In this document: piece after piece, positions 10,525 to 20,223 of the stretch
Layout: each line of letters begins with the position of its first letter
Position numbering within the stretch: the stretch's first letter is position 1
DNA from: Rhodovibrio salinarum DSM 9154
Lineage (GTDB): Bacteria > Pseudomonadota > Alphaproteobacteria > Kiloniellales > Rhodovibrionaceae
Direction of reading: 5' to 3'
Assembly (NCBI RefSeq): GCF_000515255.1
Contig: NZ_KI911559.1
Coordinates: 3,166,693-3,230,692 of the forward strand
Length of the DNA stretch: 64,000 nt
The notes under the pieces: model-generated
What the model was told of the DNA's origin: nothing
The model's input: the letters and a program-made list of their open reading frames with translations, nothing else
Database searches by the model: none
Translations under genes and position numbers: made by a program

Positions 10525-10986
10525 ATGAGCGACAACCGTGGTGTGGTTCCGCGCAAGGCGATCATTGGCGCTGGCCTGATTCTGGCGATCACGATGGCGT
10601 TCGCTGCTTACGGCAGCATCACCGGTTTGAACCTGCCCGGCGAGCCGGACAGCGAACCGCGGACCAGCGTGCCAATCCGAGTCGACGACCGGCCGGATGG
10701 GTCGGTCGCCGTCTACGACGCCGATACCAATGAACTGATCGATACGGTCGCCCCGGGCGAAAACGGGTTCATTCGCGGCGCCATGCGCGCGCTCGCCCGC
10801 CAGCGGCAAATGCAGAACATCGGCGCCAAGCCCCCCTTCAAGCTGACGCTTTGGGAGAACGGCCGGCTGTCGCTGAAGGACATGGCGACTGGCGAACGGA
10901 TTTTCCTGGAAGCCTATGGCACAACGAACCGCGACGCCTTCGCAGCCCTACTGGTCACCGCGACCAAGCAACGCGAACGGCAATAG
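10525..10986 (+). CDS. puhC: Photosynthetic complex assembly protein PuhC
   Basis: 153 residues. One membrane segment close to the N terminus (about 12-30) and a periplasmic domain rich in short beta-forming stretches, with RVDDRPDGSVAVYDADT typical of the family. PuhC helps reorganise LH1 around the reaction centre in Rhodobacter. A strong Shine-Dalgarno run (GAGGAGGAGG) precedes the ATG. It is separated from puhB by 216 bases that contain no credible gene, only a short GTAGAC/GCAGAC hexamer repeat at about 10398-10417. Confidence 0.9.
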   Translation: MSDNRGVVPRKAIIGAGLILAITMAFAAYGSITGLNLPGEPDSEPRTSVPIRVDDRPDGSVAVYDADTNELIDTVAPGENGFIRGAMRALARQRQMQNIGAKPPFKLTLWENGRLSLKDMATGERIFLEAYGTTNRDAFAALLVTATKQRERQ

Positions 10987-11162: not shown

Positions 11163-12980
11163 ATGGACGCCTACCTCTGGCCAGCGCTGTTCGCCCTGTT
11201 CCTCTGGTGGTTCTCCACCGGAGCGGTGATCTATCTGGACGGCCTCCCCCGGCCAACCTTCAAGTGGAGCATGCTGGGAGCATCCGTCGTGCTGGTCGCC
11301 GCCCTGTTCGGCATCGGCGCGACGGCAAACGACACGACCCTGAGCGGCGCGTACTGCGCGTTTGCCAGCGGCCTGCTGGTCTGGGGATGGATCGAGCTCA
11401 GCTTCTACACCGGCTACGTCACCGGGCCACGCACACACCCCTGTCCCGAGGGCTGCCGAGGCTGGAAGCACTTCGGCCACGCGATCATGACCAGCCTGTG
11501 GCACGAACTGGCCATCCTGGCGGGGGCGGCGATCGTGCTGGCGGTCACCTGGGACCAGCCGAACAAGGTCGGTCTGTGGACCTTCGTCGTGCTCTGGTGG
11601 ATGCACCAGAGCGCGAAGCTCAACGTGTTCCTCGGCGTGCGCAACGTCACCGAGGAGTTCGTTCCGGAACATCTCACCTTCCTGCGCTCCTTCCTGACCA
11701 AGCGCACCTCGATGAACCTGCTGTTCCCGGTCTCGGTAACGGTGTCGACGGTGGTGTGCGTCTACCTAGTCGACGCCGCCGTGGCGCCGGGGGCCAGCAC
11801 GTTCGACGCGGCTGGCTACAGCTTTCTTGCGACCTTGATGACGCTGGCGATCCTGGAGCACTGGTTTCTGATGCTCCCCCTGCCCGCCCAGAAGCTATGG
11901 AGCTGGGGCCTGAAGTCGCGTCCCGAGGGACAGCCGTTCGAGGTCGACGTGGTCGCAGGGTTCCTGGGCGCGGGTAAGACCACGTACCTGCGCCGCGCCC
12001 TCGCATCGGTCGATCCGAATGTCCCGACCGTGGCGCTGATCAACGACTTCGGTGAGTTGGGGGTCGATGCGTCGCTGCTGTACGGACGTGGCGCGGATGT
12101 GGTCGAGCTGCCAAACGGCTGCATCTGCTGCTCGCTCCGCCAAGACCTCGCCCAGCAGCTGCGCGAGGCGCTCGCAACCTACCGGCCGCAACGCATCCTG
12201 ATCGAGCCGAGCGGAATTGCCGACGTCGCCAGCCTGCTGGGTGTCCTGGAAGAGGCCGACATCAAACCGTTGCTGCGCACCCTGCGCCTGACCACGGTGG
12301 TCGACGCGGGCGCTTTCCTGCGCGATTACGCTCAGCTGCCCGAGCATTTCGAGACACAGGCCCGCCTGACGCCGCTGTTCGTGGTCAACAAGATCGATAC
12401 GGTGAACGAGGGTGAGCTGCAGACCGTCTACGATACGCTGCGCGCCCTGAACCCGCGGGCGGGGATCATCAAGGCAACCTACGGTCAGACGGAAAACGGT
12501 ACGCCGGACGGCAACAGCCTTGCTCTCCTGTCCGCCGACACCACCAAGGCGCTGGACAGCCAACATACTGCGCACCATGTCCACGACGGCGCCCACGTCG
12601 CACCGGATGTCGACCCGGGGCAGCAGCAGAACAGCGAAGACGCGGGCAATGACGAGACGCCCCCCACGCACGTCAACGCACTCGGTCTCGACACCTGGAG
12701 CGCACGCTTGACCGGCGCCTGCGATCCGCAGAGCCTGCGGGCGGTGCTGGATGCGGTGGCTTCCGGTGCGTTCGGCGATGTCGCGCGGGTCAAGGGAATC
12801 GCCCGCGCGGGGGCCGGCTGGGTGCATTTCGACATGGCCGGGGGACGGTCGTCCGTCGCCGCCTTCGCGCCGCACCGGGACGACGAGCCCCGCGTGGTCG
12901 CAATCGGCCGGGAAGTCGACGGCGACCGCTTGAAGGCGGCGTTCGAAGCGTGCCGAACCCCGATCGTGGGGACCTGCTAG
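11163..12980 (+). CDS. puhE: PuhE fused to a G3E (CobW/COG0523) GTPase
   Basis: 605 residues in one uninterrupted frame. Residues 1 to about 255 are a complete PuhE (photosynthetic complex assembly protein 2, DUF3623): about seven hydrophobic segments, [16 protein letters not shown], and [20 protein letters not shown] at the end. PuhE modulates reaction-centre and bacteriochlorophyll levels. About ten residues later a G3E P-loop GTPase begins: Walker A GFLGAGKT (266-273), the metal-binding CICC motif (320-323), EPSG, and the guanine motif NKID (409-412). A His-rich loop ([11 protein letters not shown]) near 470 and a CobW C-terminal domain (about 505-600) follow. COG0523 proteins insert or deliver metals such as Zn2+ or Co2+; the metal here is not known. 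The location immediately before hemA and bchE suggests a tetrapyrrole-related role, by inference. Confidence 0.92.
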
Positions 12981-13057: not shown

Positions 13058-14269
13058 ATGGACTACGAAAGCTTTTTCCAGCAACAGATCGGCAGCCTGA
13101 AGACGGAAGGCCGCTACCGCGTCTTCGCCGACCTGGAACGCCATGCCGGCGACTTCCCGCGCGCCACCCGTTACGAGGGTGCGGACCGCAGCGACGTCAC
13201 CGTTTGGTGCTCCAACGACTACTTGGGTATGGGCCAGCACCCCGACGTGCTGGAGGCCATGAAGACCGCGATCGACCGCTGCGGTGCGGGCGCCGGCGGG
13301 ACGCGCAACATCTCCGGCACGAACCACTATCACGTTTTGCTGGAGCAGGAACTGGCCGCGCTGCACGGCAAGGAGGCCGGCCTGCTATTCACCAGCGGCT
13401 ACGTCTCCAACTGGGCCGCGCTCGGCACCCTCGCCGCACGCCTGCCGAACTGCGTCGTGTTGTCGGACGCCCTCAACCACGCCTCGATGATCGAGGGGAT
13501 TCGGCATTCGCGCGCGGAAAAGCGGATCTTCGCCCACAACGATCCCGAAGACCTGGCCCGGAAGCTGGCCGACCTCGATCCGGAACGGCCGAAGCTGATC
13601 GCCTTCGAGAGCGTCTACTCGATGGATGGCGACATCGCCCCGATTGCGGAGTTCTGCGAGGTTGCCGAGCACTACAACGCCATGACCTATCTGGACGAGG
13701 TGCATGCCGTCGGCCTGTATGGGCCGAACGGCGGCGGCATCGCCGACCGGGAAGGCGTGGCGCACCGGCTGACGGTGATCGAGGGCACGCTCGGCAAAGC
13801 GTTCGGGGTGATGGGTGGCTATATCGCCGCGTCCGACGCGCTGTGCGACTTCGTGCGCTCGCATGCTTCCGGCTTCATCTTCACCACCTCCCTCCCGCCA
13901 GCCATCGCCGCAGGCGCGCTGGCCAGCGTACGCCATGTCCGAGACGCCCATGAGCTGCGCGCCCGTCAGCAGGACCGTGTCGAGAAGGTTCGCCGTTGGC
14001 TGGACGATGCGGGGTTGCCGCATCTGCCGAATCCGAGCCACATCGTTCCGGTCATGGTCCGCGATGCCAAGCAGTGCAAGGCCATCACCGACCGGTTGCT
14101 GAGCGAGCATGGCATCTACGTCCAGCCGATCAATTACCCGACCGTCCCGAGGGGTGCCGAACGACTGCGTCTCACCCCCTCGCCCCTGCACAGCGATCAG
14201 GACATCGAGCAATTGGTCGATGCGCTGTCGATCGTCTGGGCGGAACTCGGAGTCCAGTGCGCGGCTTAG
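13058..14269 (+). CDS. hemA: 5-aminolevulinate synthase
   Basis: 403 residues from the ATG reading [10 protein letters not shown], the usual alphaproteobacterial HemA start; the frame is open further upstream but without similarity. PLP-dependent condensation of glycine and succinyl-CoA to ALA (Shemin pathway). The PLP lysine is K247 in [24 protein letters not shown] and [11 protein letters not shown] near the N terminus are glycine and PLP-site motifs. Located 77 bases after the puhE fusion. Having hemA inside the photosynthesis cluster suggests it serves bacteriochlorophyll synthesis; whether the genome has a second copy cannot be seen. Confidence 0.97.
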
Positions 14270-14377: not shown

Positions 14378-14396
14378 CGCGGGCTTACAGCGGTCT

Positions 14397-14414
14397 TGTC
14401 AGGTTTATATGACA
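14397..14414. promoter_or_regulatory. PpsR/CrtJ palindrome in the bchE promoter
   Basis: TGTCAGGTTTATATGACA is a perfect TGT-N12-ACA palindrome with the preferred inner C and G, the recognition sequence of the redox repressor PpsR/CrtJ. It ends 26 bases before the bchE ATG and contains a TATATG that could serve as a -10 element, so a bound repressor would block RNA polymerase. Only one good copy is present here, unlike the tandem pairs at bchC and crtE/crtD. Confidence 0.8.
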
Positions 14415-14440
14415 GTTACGGCAGGCCTGGGGAGATCGTC

Positions 14441-16165
14441 ATGCGTATCCTGCTGATGCATCCGAACTACCATTCCGGTGGCGCGGAGATCGCGGGCAAC
14501 TGGCCGCCGGCATGGGTGGCCTACATAGCCGGCAGCTTGAAGAAGGAAGGCTACGACAACATCCGTTTCGTGGATGCGATGACGCACGATCTCTCCGACG
14601 AGCAGATCCGGGCGATCATTGCCGCGGAGCAGCCGGACGTCGTCGGCACCACCGCGATTACGCCGTCAATCTATAAGGCGGAACGGATTCTGGAGATCGC
14701 CAAGGAAGAGGTGCCGGAGGCGGTGACCGTCCTGGGCGGCATCCACGCCACCTTCATGTACAAGCAGGTGTTCGTCGAGGCGCCTTGGATTGACTGCATC
14801 GTGCGCGGCGAAGGCGAGCACGTGTTCGTCGACCTGATCCGGACGATCGACGAGGGTCGCTGGCCTGAGGAGTGCGACCAGGTAAAAGGCATCGCCTGGC
14901 ACGACGGCGAGCAGGTGATCGCCAACCCGGCGGCGCCGCCGATCACCCGGCTGGACACGCTGGCGCCCGACTGGGGCGTGCTCGAGTGGGACCAGTACCA
15001 CTATATCCCGATGCAGAACCGCCGAGTCGCAGTGCCGAACTTCGCGCGCGGCTGCCCCTACACCTGCACCTTCTGCTCGCAGTGGAAGTTCTGGCGGACC
15101 TATCGGGTGCGCAACCCGAAGGACGTGGTCGACGAGATCGAGCACCTGTACCGGGAATACGACGTCGGCTTCTTCATCCTGGCGGACGAAGAGCCCACGA
15201 TTCACCGGAAGAAATTCATCGAGTTCTGCGAGGAGCTGGCTTCCCGGAACCTGGATATCTACTGGGGCATCAACACCCGCGTGACCGATATCCTGCGCGA
15301 CGAGGAATACCTGCCGCTCTACCGCCGGGCCGGGCTGATCCACATCTCGCTTGGCACCGAAGCAGCCGCGCAGATGAACCTGAACCGGTTCCGCAAGGAA
15401 ACCACGATCGAGCAGAACAAGAAGGCGATCGAACTGCTGCGCAAGCACGGCATCGTCTCCGAAGCCCAGTTCATCGTGGGGATGGAGAACGAGACGCGGG
15501 AGCAGCTCGAGGAAACCTATCAAATGTGCCAGGACTGGGCGCCCGACATGGCCAACTGGGCCATGTACACCCCCTGGCCTTTCTCCGACATGTTCGCGGA
15601 GCTGGATGACAAGGTCGAGGTCTACGACTTCGACAAATACAACTTCGTCACGCCGATCATTAAGCCGGACCAGATGGATCGCGCGGAAGTGCTTGACCGC
15701 GTCATGCACAATTACCGCCGCTTCTACATGAAGAAGAGCTTCTTCTCCTATCCCTGGACGCGCGACAAGGCGAAACGGAAGTATCTGATGGGCTGTCTGA
15801 AGGCCTATGCCCTGTCCGGTTTCAAGCGGAAATTCTACGACCTCGGCCGGGTGAACTACTGGGGCTCCAAGAAGACGGTGCACTTCGACTTCGACGAGAC
15901 CAAGTCGACCATCGTTCAGCCCTCGCTCGGTGAATGGAAACAGGCCCCGCGCAAGAAGCTGGAACGGGCACGCAACGTCGCTCGGGAGGCGCAGGTCAAC
16001 AAGCAGGCCGCCCGTGAGCGGGCCAAGGAGGAAGCTGCCCGGATCAAGGCAAACGGTGGCCAGGCCGACGCCAGCACGCCCACGCGCAGCGGCGAGCCGG
16101 TATCTCTCAACAAGCGGCGCGAGCGCGACGAACAGCGCACCGCGGAGAGCACGCCAGCGGAATAG
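14441..16165 (+). CDS. bchE: Anaerobic Mg-protoporphyrin IX monomethyl ester cyclase (cobalamin-dependent radical SAM)
   Basis: 574 residues from the ATG preceded by GGGGAG. BchE forms the isocyclic ring E using water-derived oxygen, with cobalamin and a radical-SAM 4Fe-4S cluster. Residues 1 to about 140 are the B12-binding domain ([20 protein letters not shown] start). The radical-SAM motif CPYTCTFC supplies cysteines C205, C209 and C212. The C-terminal 60 residues are a basic, Ala/Arg/Glu-rich tail that is probably coiled or disordered. Upstream are an FNR-like and a PpsR-type site. This is the only ring E cyclase in the window; no acsF is present. Confidence 0.96.
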
Positions 16166-17135: not shown

Positions 17136-18290
17136 CTAGAAGCGGTTGTCGACCGCCGGTTCGGCGTTTTCCGAGCCGATACGCGGCTGCAAACCGTAGT
17201 TGGCGCCGTGATCCGGCCCCAGCTCGTCACGGAGCTGCGCGGCCTCGTCGCGGCTGAGGTTCGGGTCAAGGCCCGGATAGTCCTTGACCATGTTGGCGCC
17301 GAACAGCGGCTTGTACACGCCCTGGTGACAGGTCGTGCAGTTGATCTTCGGCGCATCGCCCGTCGGGCCCAGACGCTCCGGCGGCAGGAACTCGGTCGTC
17401 GGAATCACGTGCTCGTTGTTGAGCGCCTGGGTCATCCGCTGACCGTGCCACGCCGTCACGCGCTGCGGCGGGCTCTGATCCCAATCGCTCCAGGACCGGC
17501 TGTTGTGGCAGTACGTGCAGTTGACGCCCAGGGCTTCGGACTGGTGCATCATCAGGCTGTACGTCGCCTCAGTCGACTGGATCGAGTCCGTGCTCTGGGG
17601 ATCGGGCAACGCCTGGCCGCCCTGCACACGGATCATCTGGGTCAAGTCACCCTCGCCAACCAGATAGCGCTCGAACGGATTGCCGGGCATAGCGGTATAG
17701 CCGACCTCCGTGTTCGGCGCGTTCTGACCATCCGGCCGCCAGCCCGCCAACATATTGTTGGTGCTGCGCGGATCGTCCGCGTTCTCCCACCAGACGTACT
17801 CCGGCAGGTTGTTGCCGCGGTGGCAGGTGAAGCAGGTCACGCCCGTCGCCCCGACGTGGTCTTCCCAGTTCTCGTTGATGTCCCTGGTCATCCGCAGCAT
17901 CTGACGGCTGACCTGCTTGGTGTAGACATCCTCGTAGGCAAACCCCTGAGCCAGGTTGTGGCAATAGCCACAGCCCTGCTCCGGCGCCACCCATTGGGTG
18001 ATGGCGTTCATCAGGCGGGTGAACTGGGCCTGGTTGAGGTCACCCAGCACTTCTACGTTCTGGTAGACCTCAGAGGCCTTCTGCCCGCCCTCAGGCGCCG
18101 GAGTTCCAGGTTCCGGCACCTGATTCTGCTGGATCAACGTGGCGAAGTCCTCGGGATTGTAGTTCTGCTCGAGGGCCACGCCGCGGTACCCGCGCTGCAC
18201 GCTGTCCTTCGGCGGATCCTCGCAACCCGACAGCGCGACGGCAACGCCGAGCGAGACGAGCGCGAGCGATTTCTTATAGCTCCAAGCCAT
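17136..18290 (-). CDS. pufC: Photosynthetic reaction centre tetraheme cytochrome c subunit
   Basis: 384 residues. The signal peptide ends in a lipobox with the lipidated cysteine at C23 (VALSGC), so the protein is anchored on the periplasmic side. Four CXXCH heme sites are visible: 107-111, 153-157, 258-262 and 318-322. It takes electrons from soluble carriers and re-reduces the special pair. It is the last gene of the puf operon, 14 bases after pufM, and is followed by the strong terminator at 17055. The N-terminal region (about 25-100) contains a Pro/Gln-rich loop typical of PufC. Confidence 0.97.
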   Translation of the reverse strand: MAWSYKKSLALVSLGVAVALSGCEDPPKDSVQRGYRGVALEQNYNPEDFATLIQQNQVPEPGTPAPEGGQKASEVYQNVEVLGDLNQAQFTRLMNAITQWVAPEQGCGYCHNLAQGFAYEDVYTKQVSRQMLRMTRDINENWEDHVGATGVTCFTCHRGNNLPEYVWWENADDPRSTNNMLAGWRPDGQNAPNTEVGYTAMPGNPFERYLVGEGDLTQMIRVQGGQALPDPQSTDSIQSTEATYSLMMHQSEALGVNCTYCHNSRSWSDWDQSPPQRVTAWHGQRMTQALNNEHVIPTTEFLPPERLGPTGDAPKINCTTCHQGVYKPLFGANMVKDYPGLDPNLSRDEAAQLRDELGPDHGANYGLQPRIGSENAEPAVDNRF

Positions 18291-18304
18291 AGTGCGCTCT
18301 CCCT

Positions 18305-19297
18305 CTACTGTACCGTTGCCGCGCCCGACATCGCCGGGTCACTCATCTCGGTCATGCCCGGGAAGACGTCCGGATAGACCGGGGCCAGACCGTGCTTCAC
18401 GCCCCAGAGGTACCAGTTGTCCACGACCGTGCCGGTCAGCAGGATGCCGATACCACCGGTCAGCGGGGTCAGCACCGCGAACCACCACGCCCAGCGGTGG
18501 ATACTCTCCATGGTGGCGTTGAAGCCCATGGTCCAGCGCCAGAACAGAGCCGCACGCTCCGAGGCAGTGCCGCGATCGGTGATCTGCTCGCTTTCACGAT
18601 CGCCGCCGTACCGGCTGGTCGCCAGAATGGTGGCGCCGTGCATGGCGAACAGCAGGGTCGAGCCGTACAGGAACGCGATCGAGAGCATGTGGAACGGGTT
18701 GTAGAAGAGGTTCCCGTACCGGATCGAGAACGCCGCGGTCCAGTCGAGGTGCGGGAAGATCCCGAACGGCACGGCTTCCGCCCAGCTGCCCATCATCACC
18801 GGGCGAATCAGGCCCAGCACGAGGTACAGCCAGATCGCCGAGGCGAACGCCCAGGCCACGTGCGTGCCCATGCCGAGCTGGACCGCCCGACGGTAAGTCC
18901 GCACCCACCAGAGCAGGATCGCCGAGGTCAGGAAGAAGCCGGCCATCAGCCACCAGCCACCCTCATTCAACGGCGGCAGGCTCAGCCCGTATTCCGGCGG
19001 CGGCGGCTCCAGCGCCAGCCAGGGACCCTGGCGAACGAACTGGATCGGATCCCAGTCGACGCTCGCGAACATGTTGAGACCGATGATCTCGATCGCGATG
19101 AAGCCGCAAAGGATCGAGGCGATCCCATACCAGCCGAGGTAGATCGGCCCAAGCTGACTGTGACCGAGGCGCCCCAGCCAGCTGTTGTGCATGGGGGTGC
19201 CGAAGCGCCGGCCGGTTCTACCGGGCGGCAAGGCCAGACCGGTCTCGACTGGTCCTTGGACTTCGACCCGTGTGAAGATATTCTGATATTCAGGCAT
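18305..19297 (-). CDS. pufM: Photosynthetic reaction centre subunit M
   Basis: 330 residues, five transmembrane helices. PufM binds half of the special pair, QA and the non-haem iron. Visible signatures: N-terminal [39 protein letters not shown] with the pigment and iron histidines, and [16 protein letters not shown]. Gap of 18 bases from pufL. The C-terminal extension is short, as is usual where a PufC subunit is present. Confidence 0.98.
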
Positions 19298-19315
19298 GGT
19301 CGGTGTCCCTTCGCC

Positions 19316-20161
19316 CTAGTAGAAGCCACCGGCAGCATCCCAGACCGGGAGCTCGAGCCACCACCACCACCACTCGGGCCAGCCGCGCGTCCAGATCGGC
19401 CCGGAGATGATGATGCACACGGCGCTCCAGAACCCGGCGTTCAACGCCAGGAACAGACCTAGTCGGTGGATGCCGAGCGGGCCGATCGAGTAGCCGATGA
19501 AGTCACGGAAGAAATTATCCTCGTGCTCCGCGGCTTTAACCGGCTCGTCGTCCTTGCCGGTGTTCGCGGCGGACAGGATCGCACTGCCATGCAACGCCAG
19601 CGCGAAGGTCGTGGTGAAGAAGAAGCTCACCGCGAGCATGTGCGCCGGGTTGTAGTGGAAGTGCAGGTACTGGTAGCCGACGTTCGACACCCAATCGAGG
19701 TGCGATAGGATGCCGTACGGGAAGCCGTGCCCCCAGGCGCCCAGCAGTAGCGGGCGGAACACGACCAGCGTGATGTAGGCAAAGATCGCCACGCCGAAGG
19801 CGAAGGGTACGTGCAGTCCCATCCCCAGCTTGCGTGAGATCTCAACCTGCCGAAGCGCCCACGACACGAACGCCCCGATCGCGCAGATCGTGATCAGCTG
19901 CCACAGACCACCGTCCTGCAACGGGGCCAGTGCCAGGCCGTAACTCAAATCCGGCGGCGCGATATTGATCCGCCAGATATTCCATGTCGGGCCGAGCGCG
20001 GCGCCCCAAAGGATCAGGCTTGTCCCCAGGACGGCGAAGAACAGCGTCGTGACACCGAAGAACCCTACATAGAAGGGGCCCACCCAGAAATCAAACAGGT
20101 CGCCGCCTACAAGCGTGCCGCCACGGACCCGATATTTTCGTTCAAAACTCAACATAGCCAT
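19316..20161 (-). CDS. pufL: Photosynthetic reaction centre subunit L
   Basis: 281 residues from the ATG giving [16 protein letters not shown], preceded by GGAGGG; a start five codons earlier is less likely. Five membrane helices. PufL carries the QB site and active-branch cofactors. [20 protein letters not shown] contains the special-pair and iron-ligand histidines, and the [15 protein letters not shown] stretch is conserved. It lies 114 bases after pufA, across a strong intercistronic hairpin that likely sets the LH1:RC ratio. Confidence 0.98.
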
Positions 20162-20223
20162 AACCGAACCCTCCAATCGGATACCGGCCTCGGTGCCCGT
20201 CAGCGGCGGGCCCGAGCCGCGGT

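Follow-up and report, generated by a model that had tools for sequence, protein, structure and literature searches.

A PuhE–COG0523 GTPase fusion in the photosynthesis cluster of Rhodovibrio and its possible role as a metallochaperone for AcsF

Introduction

In the photosynthesis cluster of Rhodovibrio salinarum DSM 9154, one reading frame joins the membrane protein PuhE to a GTPase of the COG0523 (G3E) family, which raises the question of what a putative metal-handling domain does at this place. The PuhE domain (DUF3623) is still listed by Pfam as being of unknown function, and the accessible parts of PMC13297055, PMC7319587 and PMC4944227 name no loading factor for the diiron centre of AcsF. 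A fusion whose metal site is missing in every AcsF-less genome examined offers a testable handle on both questions in culturable bacteria. In COG0523 proteins metal handling depends on the CxCC motif, and the C-terminal domain is presumed to bind or choose the client (PMC7689651, in part); in CobW, a thiol-rich metal site forms with GTP and Mg, likely at the CxCC (PMC7689651 and PMC9164220, both in part).

Results

One frame encodes PuhE and a COG0523 GTPase

The window, the whole stretch of 64,000 nucleotides that was analysed, contains a single uninterrupted frame beginning with ATG at 11163–12980 on the plus strand, which encodes 605 residues (Pfam, NCBIfam and the list of open reading frames). 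Residues 1–255 (11163–11927) form a DUF3623 domain (PF12291, 369.5 bits against a cut-off of 27) with seven predicted membrane helices and a C-terminus predicted to be cytoplasmic. The protein belongs to PuhE both by sequence, since it matched the PuhE equivalog TIGR03055 over its full length with 331.5 bits (NCBIfam cut-off 164), and by location, since NCBIfam placed puhA and puhC 5' of it in the photosynthesis cluster. The GTPase domain occupies residues 262–436 (11946–12470; Pfam cobW, 129.6 bits, cut-off 20.7) and contains a Walker motif (P-loop, residues 266–274, 11958–11984), a GCICC sequence as putative CxCC metal site (residues 319–323, 12117–12131) and the guanine-specificity motif NKID (residues 409–412, 12387–12398). 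A CobW_C domain follows at residues 510–598 (12690–12956; Pfam, 44.1 bits, cut-off 22). The P-loop, CxCC and NKxD motifs, together with both Pfam domains over cut-off, place this half in the COG0523 branch of G3E. The curated NCBIfam models gave scores below their cut-offs for the CobW equivalog TIGR02475 (84.3 vs 332.1 bits), the zinc metallochaperone ZigA NF038288 (91.1 vs 600 bits) and the YjiA GTPase NF008578 (60.7 vs 361 bits). The first-pass annotation, which had proposed a PuhE–COG0523 fusion in one frame from the letters of the sequence, was thus borne out by domains over their cut-offs and complete motifs.

The architecture recurs in Rhodovibrio sodomensis and in many other genomes, and the GTPase and CobW_C domains appear constrained between the two Rhodovibrio species (NG86 dN/dS 0.22 and 0.07, respectively), so the fusion is not a sequencing error. 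A split product made from an internal start was considered and found unsupported by a scan of codons 241–300, which contain no ATG; the other start-type codons there are GTG 263, GTG 290 and TTG 299, of which the last two fall within the GTPase. The linker between W248 and the P-loop measured 18 residues in 27 of 31 rows and 19–20 in the other four, two further rows having escaped the search pattern. The His-rich loop described at first proved modest: a short His-containing stretch is present between the GTPase and CobW_C (residues 468–478, 12564–12596, plus strand, read off the sequence), but the linker has only five His in 50 residues and that of R. sodomensis only one. No cobalamin riboswitch or other known RNA was found in the 64-kb window at the gathering threshold.

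Predicted structure and invariant residues of PuhE

The model of the whole protein (mean pLDDT 77.1, pTM 0.56) comprised seven membrane helices, a final short helix, the GTPase seven residues later and then CobW_C; pLDDT was below 50 at residues 159–178, 319–324 (including the CxCC) and 467–506. The helix count is concordant with PMC12423673 (in part), and the charge distribution in a simple hydropathy count suits a cytoplasmic position for the C-terminal end of PuhE. A fold search with the whole model returned YjiA first, followed by HypB and other G3E or SRP GTPases, and YjiA was also the sole solved relative by sequence (two distinct sequences). The PuhE part modelled separately (11163–11921) reached a pLDDT of 92.8 and had no Foldseek match in the PDB at E ≤ 0.001; VIA-align gave Z scores of at most 7.3, a level that a common arrangement alone may produce in helical bundles. 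The transmembrane acyltransferase superfamily was rejected as a home for PuhE, as the accessible text of PMC12423673 does not count DUF3623 there.

Five PuhE residues (E78, H114, E115, E232 and H233) were identical in 113 of 113 domains, with or without a GTPase, and the models place them in helices 3, 4 and 7. This set resembles metal or pigment ligands.

Distribution of the fusion

The idea that the puhE–GTPase fusion might be a singleton did not hold: it is widespread, its intact hosts including Acidiphilium rubrum and other Acidiphilium, Acidocella, Lichenicoccus roseus, Caenispirillum salinarum and Ferrovum MAGs. Among the best 80 of 272 relatives, a scan biased toward this clade, the closest named one was R. 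sodomensis (L072), whose PuhE is 89% identical and carries the fusion. In the class sample PuhE exceeded its cut-off in 27 of 385 genomes, three of which had full fusions (G000, G391, G158). The phylum sample yielded PuhE in 31 of 398 genomes, 11 of the 31 being judged by frame length alone, with fusions in G000, G391 and G843. Within the window's order, PuhE was present in 16 of 61 genomes: G000 and G004 encode full fusions, G055 has CobW_C only, G056 and G057 have tails, and a contig end truncates G010. PuhE is a stand-alone protein in most PuhE-bearing genomes sampled.

Pooling gave 113 PuhE rows (120 minus seven duplicates or fragments), of which 30 had an intact GTPase (two, L079 and L105, cut by contig ends), three a GTPase without CxCC, six CobW_C only and 74 none. 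Two Pelagibius rows with tails only (L080, L083) were counted as GTPase-less, and L094, whose 252-residue extension had no G3E match, as stand-alone. Hosts with a degenerate GTPase include Roseospira and Halorhodospira abdelmalekii. A plasmid collection contained 11 PuhE records, annotated puhE, the best being 48.9% identical. Fusions were also seen in contigs titled Kouleothrix (Chloroflexota) and Acidobacteria (L085, L105, L081), which may reflect transfer or mis-binning.

PuhE was also found joined in frame to BchJ (L206:1516–2961; L207:823–2241 and L211:841–2265, both minus strand) in the AcsF-less genomes G878, G861 and G853. Both domains exceed their NCBIfam cut-offs, making this a second kind of C-terminal PuhE fusion.

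The literature searched, mostly outside subscription journals, yielded no report of the PuhE–GTPase fusion, its distribution or a link to AcsF. Its parts are known families; the fusion is perhaps a new COG0523 subfamily.

Origin, decay and constraint

The fused G3E domains formed one clade (support 99), apart from 18 stand-alone COG0523 rows (17 distinct) drawn from the order and from the genome of the window. Across the 385 class genomes, with up to five candidates scored per genome, the best non-fusion G3E proteins among the matches listed were about 29–33% identical over nearly the full length. In a quick PuhE tree all intact and three degenerate fusions fell within one 55-row set (support 98), which also contained 21 stand-alone rows and a single row with CobW_C only; outside it lay the five Roseomonas-type rows that have just CobW_C. 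Constraining those five together with the 55 improved the tree by 23.66 log-units over the free search (p-AU 0.756). The trees fit a single fusion origin with repeated decay, and a single origin is not rejected. Stages of loss can be seen in the tails after PuhE, from CobW_C with few His (Pelagibius IP29b) through His-containing tails (other Pelagibius, Rhizobiales-type MAGs) to short tails devoid of His. Four Rhizobiales-type stand-alone PuhE (L089, L100, L107, L114) have tails that contain His and share an ending of the type A-x-LRS; such tails are perhaps remnants of the fusion's His loop.

Pairwise NG86 dN/dS values, which are rough in this GC-rich DNA, were 0.045–0.26 for the GTPase (eight pairs, one degenerate) and 0.044–0.345 for CobW_C (11 pairs), suggesting purifying selection on both domains. 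Degenerate copies gave 0.17–0.34 in two near pairs and 0.55–0.68 in one distant pair, one GTPase comparison being saturated. As these copies seem still constrained, the domain would have some role without the CxCC, which hints at a second, metal-free function such as docking or PuhE regulation.

Gene neighbourhood

In the window the fusion lies between puhC (10525–10986) and hemA (5-aminolevulinate synthase, 13058–14269, with the start MDYESFF read off the sequence), and the longest bchE frame follows at 14396–16165, all on the plus strand and named by NCBIfam. Further on, puf-type genes (a cytochrome subunit with CxxCH and M- and L-like frames) were recognised by eye at 17136–20176 on the minus strand, facing the bchJ end.

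Where loci reach far enough, the usual order was bchH-bchL-bchM-lhaA-puhABC-acsF-puhE(-G3E)-hemA. In 23 of 28 intact-fusion loci, and also in G004, acsF lies directly 5' of puhE-G3E; of the remaining five, one (L106) begins at puhE and four have no acsF there (L072 from R. sodomensis, L075, L085, L105). The same acsF-puhE order accompanies stand-alone PuhE, for example in Rubrivivax and Afifella, and is thus not peculiar to the fusion. The first-pass annotation had drawn on hemA and bchE as context: hemA recurs 3' of the fusion in 19 of the 28 loci, as in the window, but none of the 28 stretches showed bchE.

In the genome of the window, acsF is located at C1:1051099–1052079, about 2.1 Mb from puhE. 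It lies behind a second bchN-bchB-bchL set, far from the photosynthesis cluster; set and acsF together occupy L155:12054–17748, corresponding to G000 C1 about 1,051,000–1,056,750, minus strand. The bchL of this set and that of the cluster are about 80% identical.

A stand-alone G3E gene near puhE in G045 was considered as a split fusion and rejected; it is read as CobW because its neighbours are a CobN/BchH-like gene (29% to BchH) and a frame resembling a TonB receptor (by eye). G049 has a stand-alone G3E near puhE in the same order, as judged from BLAST positions alone.

In the genomes examined, the intact putative metal site is confined to those encoding AcsF

The first set for AcsF and BchE consisted of 52 handles picked from the fusion clade and from the rows with CobW_C only, excluding out-of-clade PuhE genomes such as Rubrivivax. 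AcsF was searched in 51 genomes and then in 16 more chosen to challenge the pattern (15 from the families to which the AcsF-less genera belong, plus G843). After G901 (L205) was dropped because its contig ends in PuhE, 66 genomes remained; L072 (R. sodomensis) stood outside the AcsF and BchE counts.

Every one of the 27 genomes in which the fused CxCC is intact (26 of the first set and G843) encodes AcsF, and none of the 20 informative AcsF-less genomes has such a site, so that among the 66 genomes the intact metal site was confined to those encoding AcsF, with two independent events on the G3E tree. Seven of the 20 AcsF-less genomes retain a fused GTPase with P-loop and NKxD in which GCICC is replaced (GHVCF twice, GAVCL twice, NRTAH, AGGYG and AGGYS), ten have no added domain, and three have PuhE-BchJ. 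Some AcsF absences come from MAGs, whereas named isolates account for five (two Roseospira, two Halorhodospira and Magnetospirillum molischianum). Ignoring kinship, Fisher's test on intact CxCC and AcsF gave p = 1.8e-6 for the 66 genomes; restricted to the 34 genomes that have a GTPase domain (27:0 vs 0:7), it gave p = 1.9e-7.

The G3E tree requires AcsF to have changed twice, in a Rhodospirillaceae set and a Halorhodospira set (support 100 for each), and the CxCC was lost in each. Caenispirillum, from the same genome family as Roseospira, kept both AcsF and the CxCC. The PuhE tree of 66 rows requires six changes of AcsF, several of which fall on rows that are long or weakly placed, and an independent-pair test on the 51-row PuhE tree gave two pairs and had no power. 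Only two independent events underlie the match between CxCC and AcsF, and oxygen is a confounder: because AcsF loss accompanies anaerobic bacteriochlorophyll synthesis, any O2-linked client would fit. Moreover, 19 of the 46 AcsF genomes lack an intact fused GTPase (14 have none, five CobW_C only), so AcsF has no general need of it.

An iron chaperone for AcsF is the simplest reading to account for both the gene order and the CxCC–AcsF match. We tentatively favour, at a little short of even confidence, a membrane-tethered metallochaperone, probably for iron, that would serve AcsF; metal binding, GTP hydrolysis, iron as the metal and AcsF as the client are what we infer for it.

Other roles for the fused GTPase

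The GTPase might instead be a metallochaperone for another target of in-air bacteriochlorophyll synthesis, perhaps PuhE itself, which we regard as rather unlikely. The confounding of the AcsF correlation with aerobic life would leave room for such a client, and the five invariant PuhE residues may, in the models, contribute to a single site towards the cytoplasmic face. IcmF also offers a precedent for a chaperone joined covalently to its target (PMC9164220, in part). Against PuhE as client, the five residues are equally invariant in PuhE lacking a GTPase, and there would be no direct reason for the CxCC to track AcsF.

Metal sensing that tunes pigment synthesis, as first suggested, is possible. 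Taken as the main function, a signalling part through which bacteriochlorophyll levels respond to metal seems improbable to us. The near-fixed linker length would suit it, as would the retention of P-loop and NKxD after CxCC loss and of CobW_C after GTPase loss (the five Roseomonas-type rows and a Pelagibius MAG); the role of PuhE itself is taken from a title in the reference list of PMC11762602. However, the COG0523 proteins described in the available text of PMC9164220 and PMC7689651 handle or deliver metal.

Zinc handling for Zn-bacteriochlorophyll, or a general acidophile trait, is very improbable. A. rubrum, other Acidiphilium and Acidocella have intact fusions with 11–16 His in the linker, but intact fusions also occur in Rhodovibrio and Caenispirillum, and the Ferrovum linker examined (L104) has no His. 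Rhodovibrio and Caenispirillum are not known to use Zn-bacteriochlorophyll. In Acidiphilium rubrum, where Zn-bacteriochlorophyll does occur, a reported proposal has Mg inserted first and replaced later (PMC4944227, in part).

The first-pass annotation had put forward cobalt or cobalamin supply to BchE, prompted by bchE after hemA in the window, and the GTPase is distantly CobW-like at 84.3 bits, although far from the 332-bit cut-off of the CobW equivalog. Among the 26 intact-fusion genomes of the first set, to which the BchE counts apply, eight had BchE over cut-off and two had contig-end fragments counted as present; neither was found in the other 16, among them Acidiphilium rubrum and Lichenicoccus roseus. 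BchE presence and intact fusion showed no association (Fisher p 0.16), and the six AcsF-less genomes of that set all encode BchE and have no intact fused CxCC, the opposite of expectation. BchE supply therefore cannot be the general role, and we consider it highly improbable. Its companion proposal, zinc supply to ALA dehydratase (HemB), is barely credible: hemA, the source of the HemB substrate, does lie 3' of the fusion in most loci, but zinc-type HemB has Cys where the Asp-type motif has Asp, and all 23 HemB found (in 23 of 25 genomes searched, including 13 of the 14 that carry an intact fusion) have the Asp-type motif DVALDP...G(H/Q)DG.

Discussion

For the reading that we favour, an AcsF metallochaperone, the sequence suggests the following course. 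A COG0523 metallochaperone would be joined through a short linker of near-fixed length to the cytoplasmic end of the seven-helix PuhE; with GTP bound, the CxCC would acquire a transition metal (Fe(II) being the likeliest), which would be passed to AcsF, guided by CobW_C and the PuhE anchor. The handover would take place at the membrane site of bacteriochlorophyll synthesis and of its insertion into the core complex. AcsF contains a diiron centre (PMC7319587 and PMC13297055, both in part), and a COG0523 protein, Nha3, serves an Fe-type nitrile hydratase (PMC9164220, in part).

Beyond the small number of events, the link to oxygen, the AcsF-bearing genomes that lack a fusion and the acsF-puhE order around stand-alone PuhE, further points count against this reading. 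Recombinant AcsF out of E. coli contained about 2.35 Fe per monomer according to the accessible text of PMC13297055. The window's own genome has its acsF far from the fusion. His-rich linkers are found more typically in proteins that handle zinc, nickel or cobalt.

The stronger claim that the fusion is a new PuhE-anchored COG0523 subfamily and the dedicated iron-insertion factor of AcsF, with PuhE as docking platform and PuhE-BchJ as a second docking case, is possible yet doubtful. If true, PuhE would couple the cofactor loading of pigment enzymes to photosystem assembly.

The fusion shares cobW and CobW_C domains, P-loop, CxCC and NKxD with the COG0523 proteins CobW, ZigA/ZagA, YjiA, YeiR and Nha3, but its GTPase passes no curated CobW, ZigA or YjiA cut-off, forms a clade of its own and is attached to a seven-helix membrane protein. 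Likened by description alone, Nha3 comes close in that it matures an iron enzyme, the role proposed here; Nha3 is a separate protein (PMC9164220, in part, for both points), whereas the client of the fusion is a proposal. With stand-alone PuhE (DUF3623, TIGR03055) the fusion has the full-length domain, the invariant residues and the place in the operon in common, and it differs by about 350 extra residues. IcmF belongs to a different G3E branch, has a cobalamin client and is not known as a membrane protein. Nevertheless, as a MeaB G3E chaperone covalently joined to its partner mutase (PMC9164220, in part), it is built on the same principle as the fusion.
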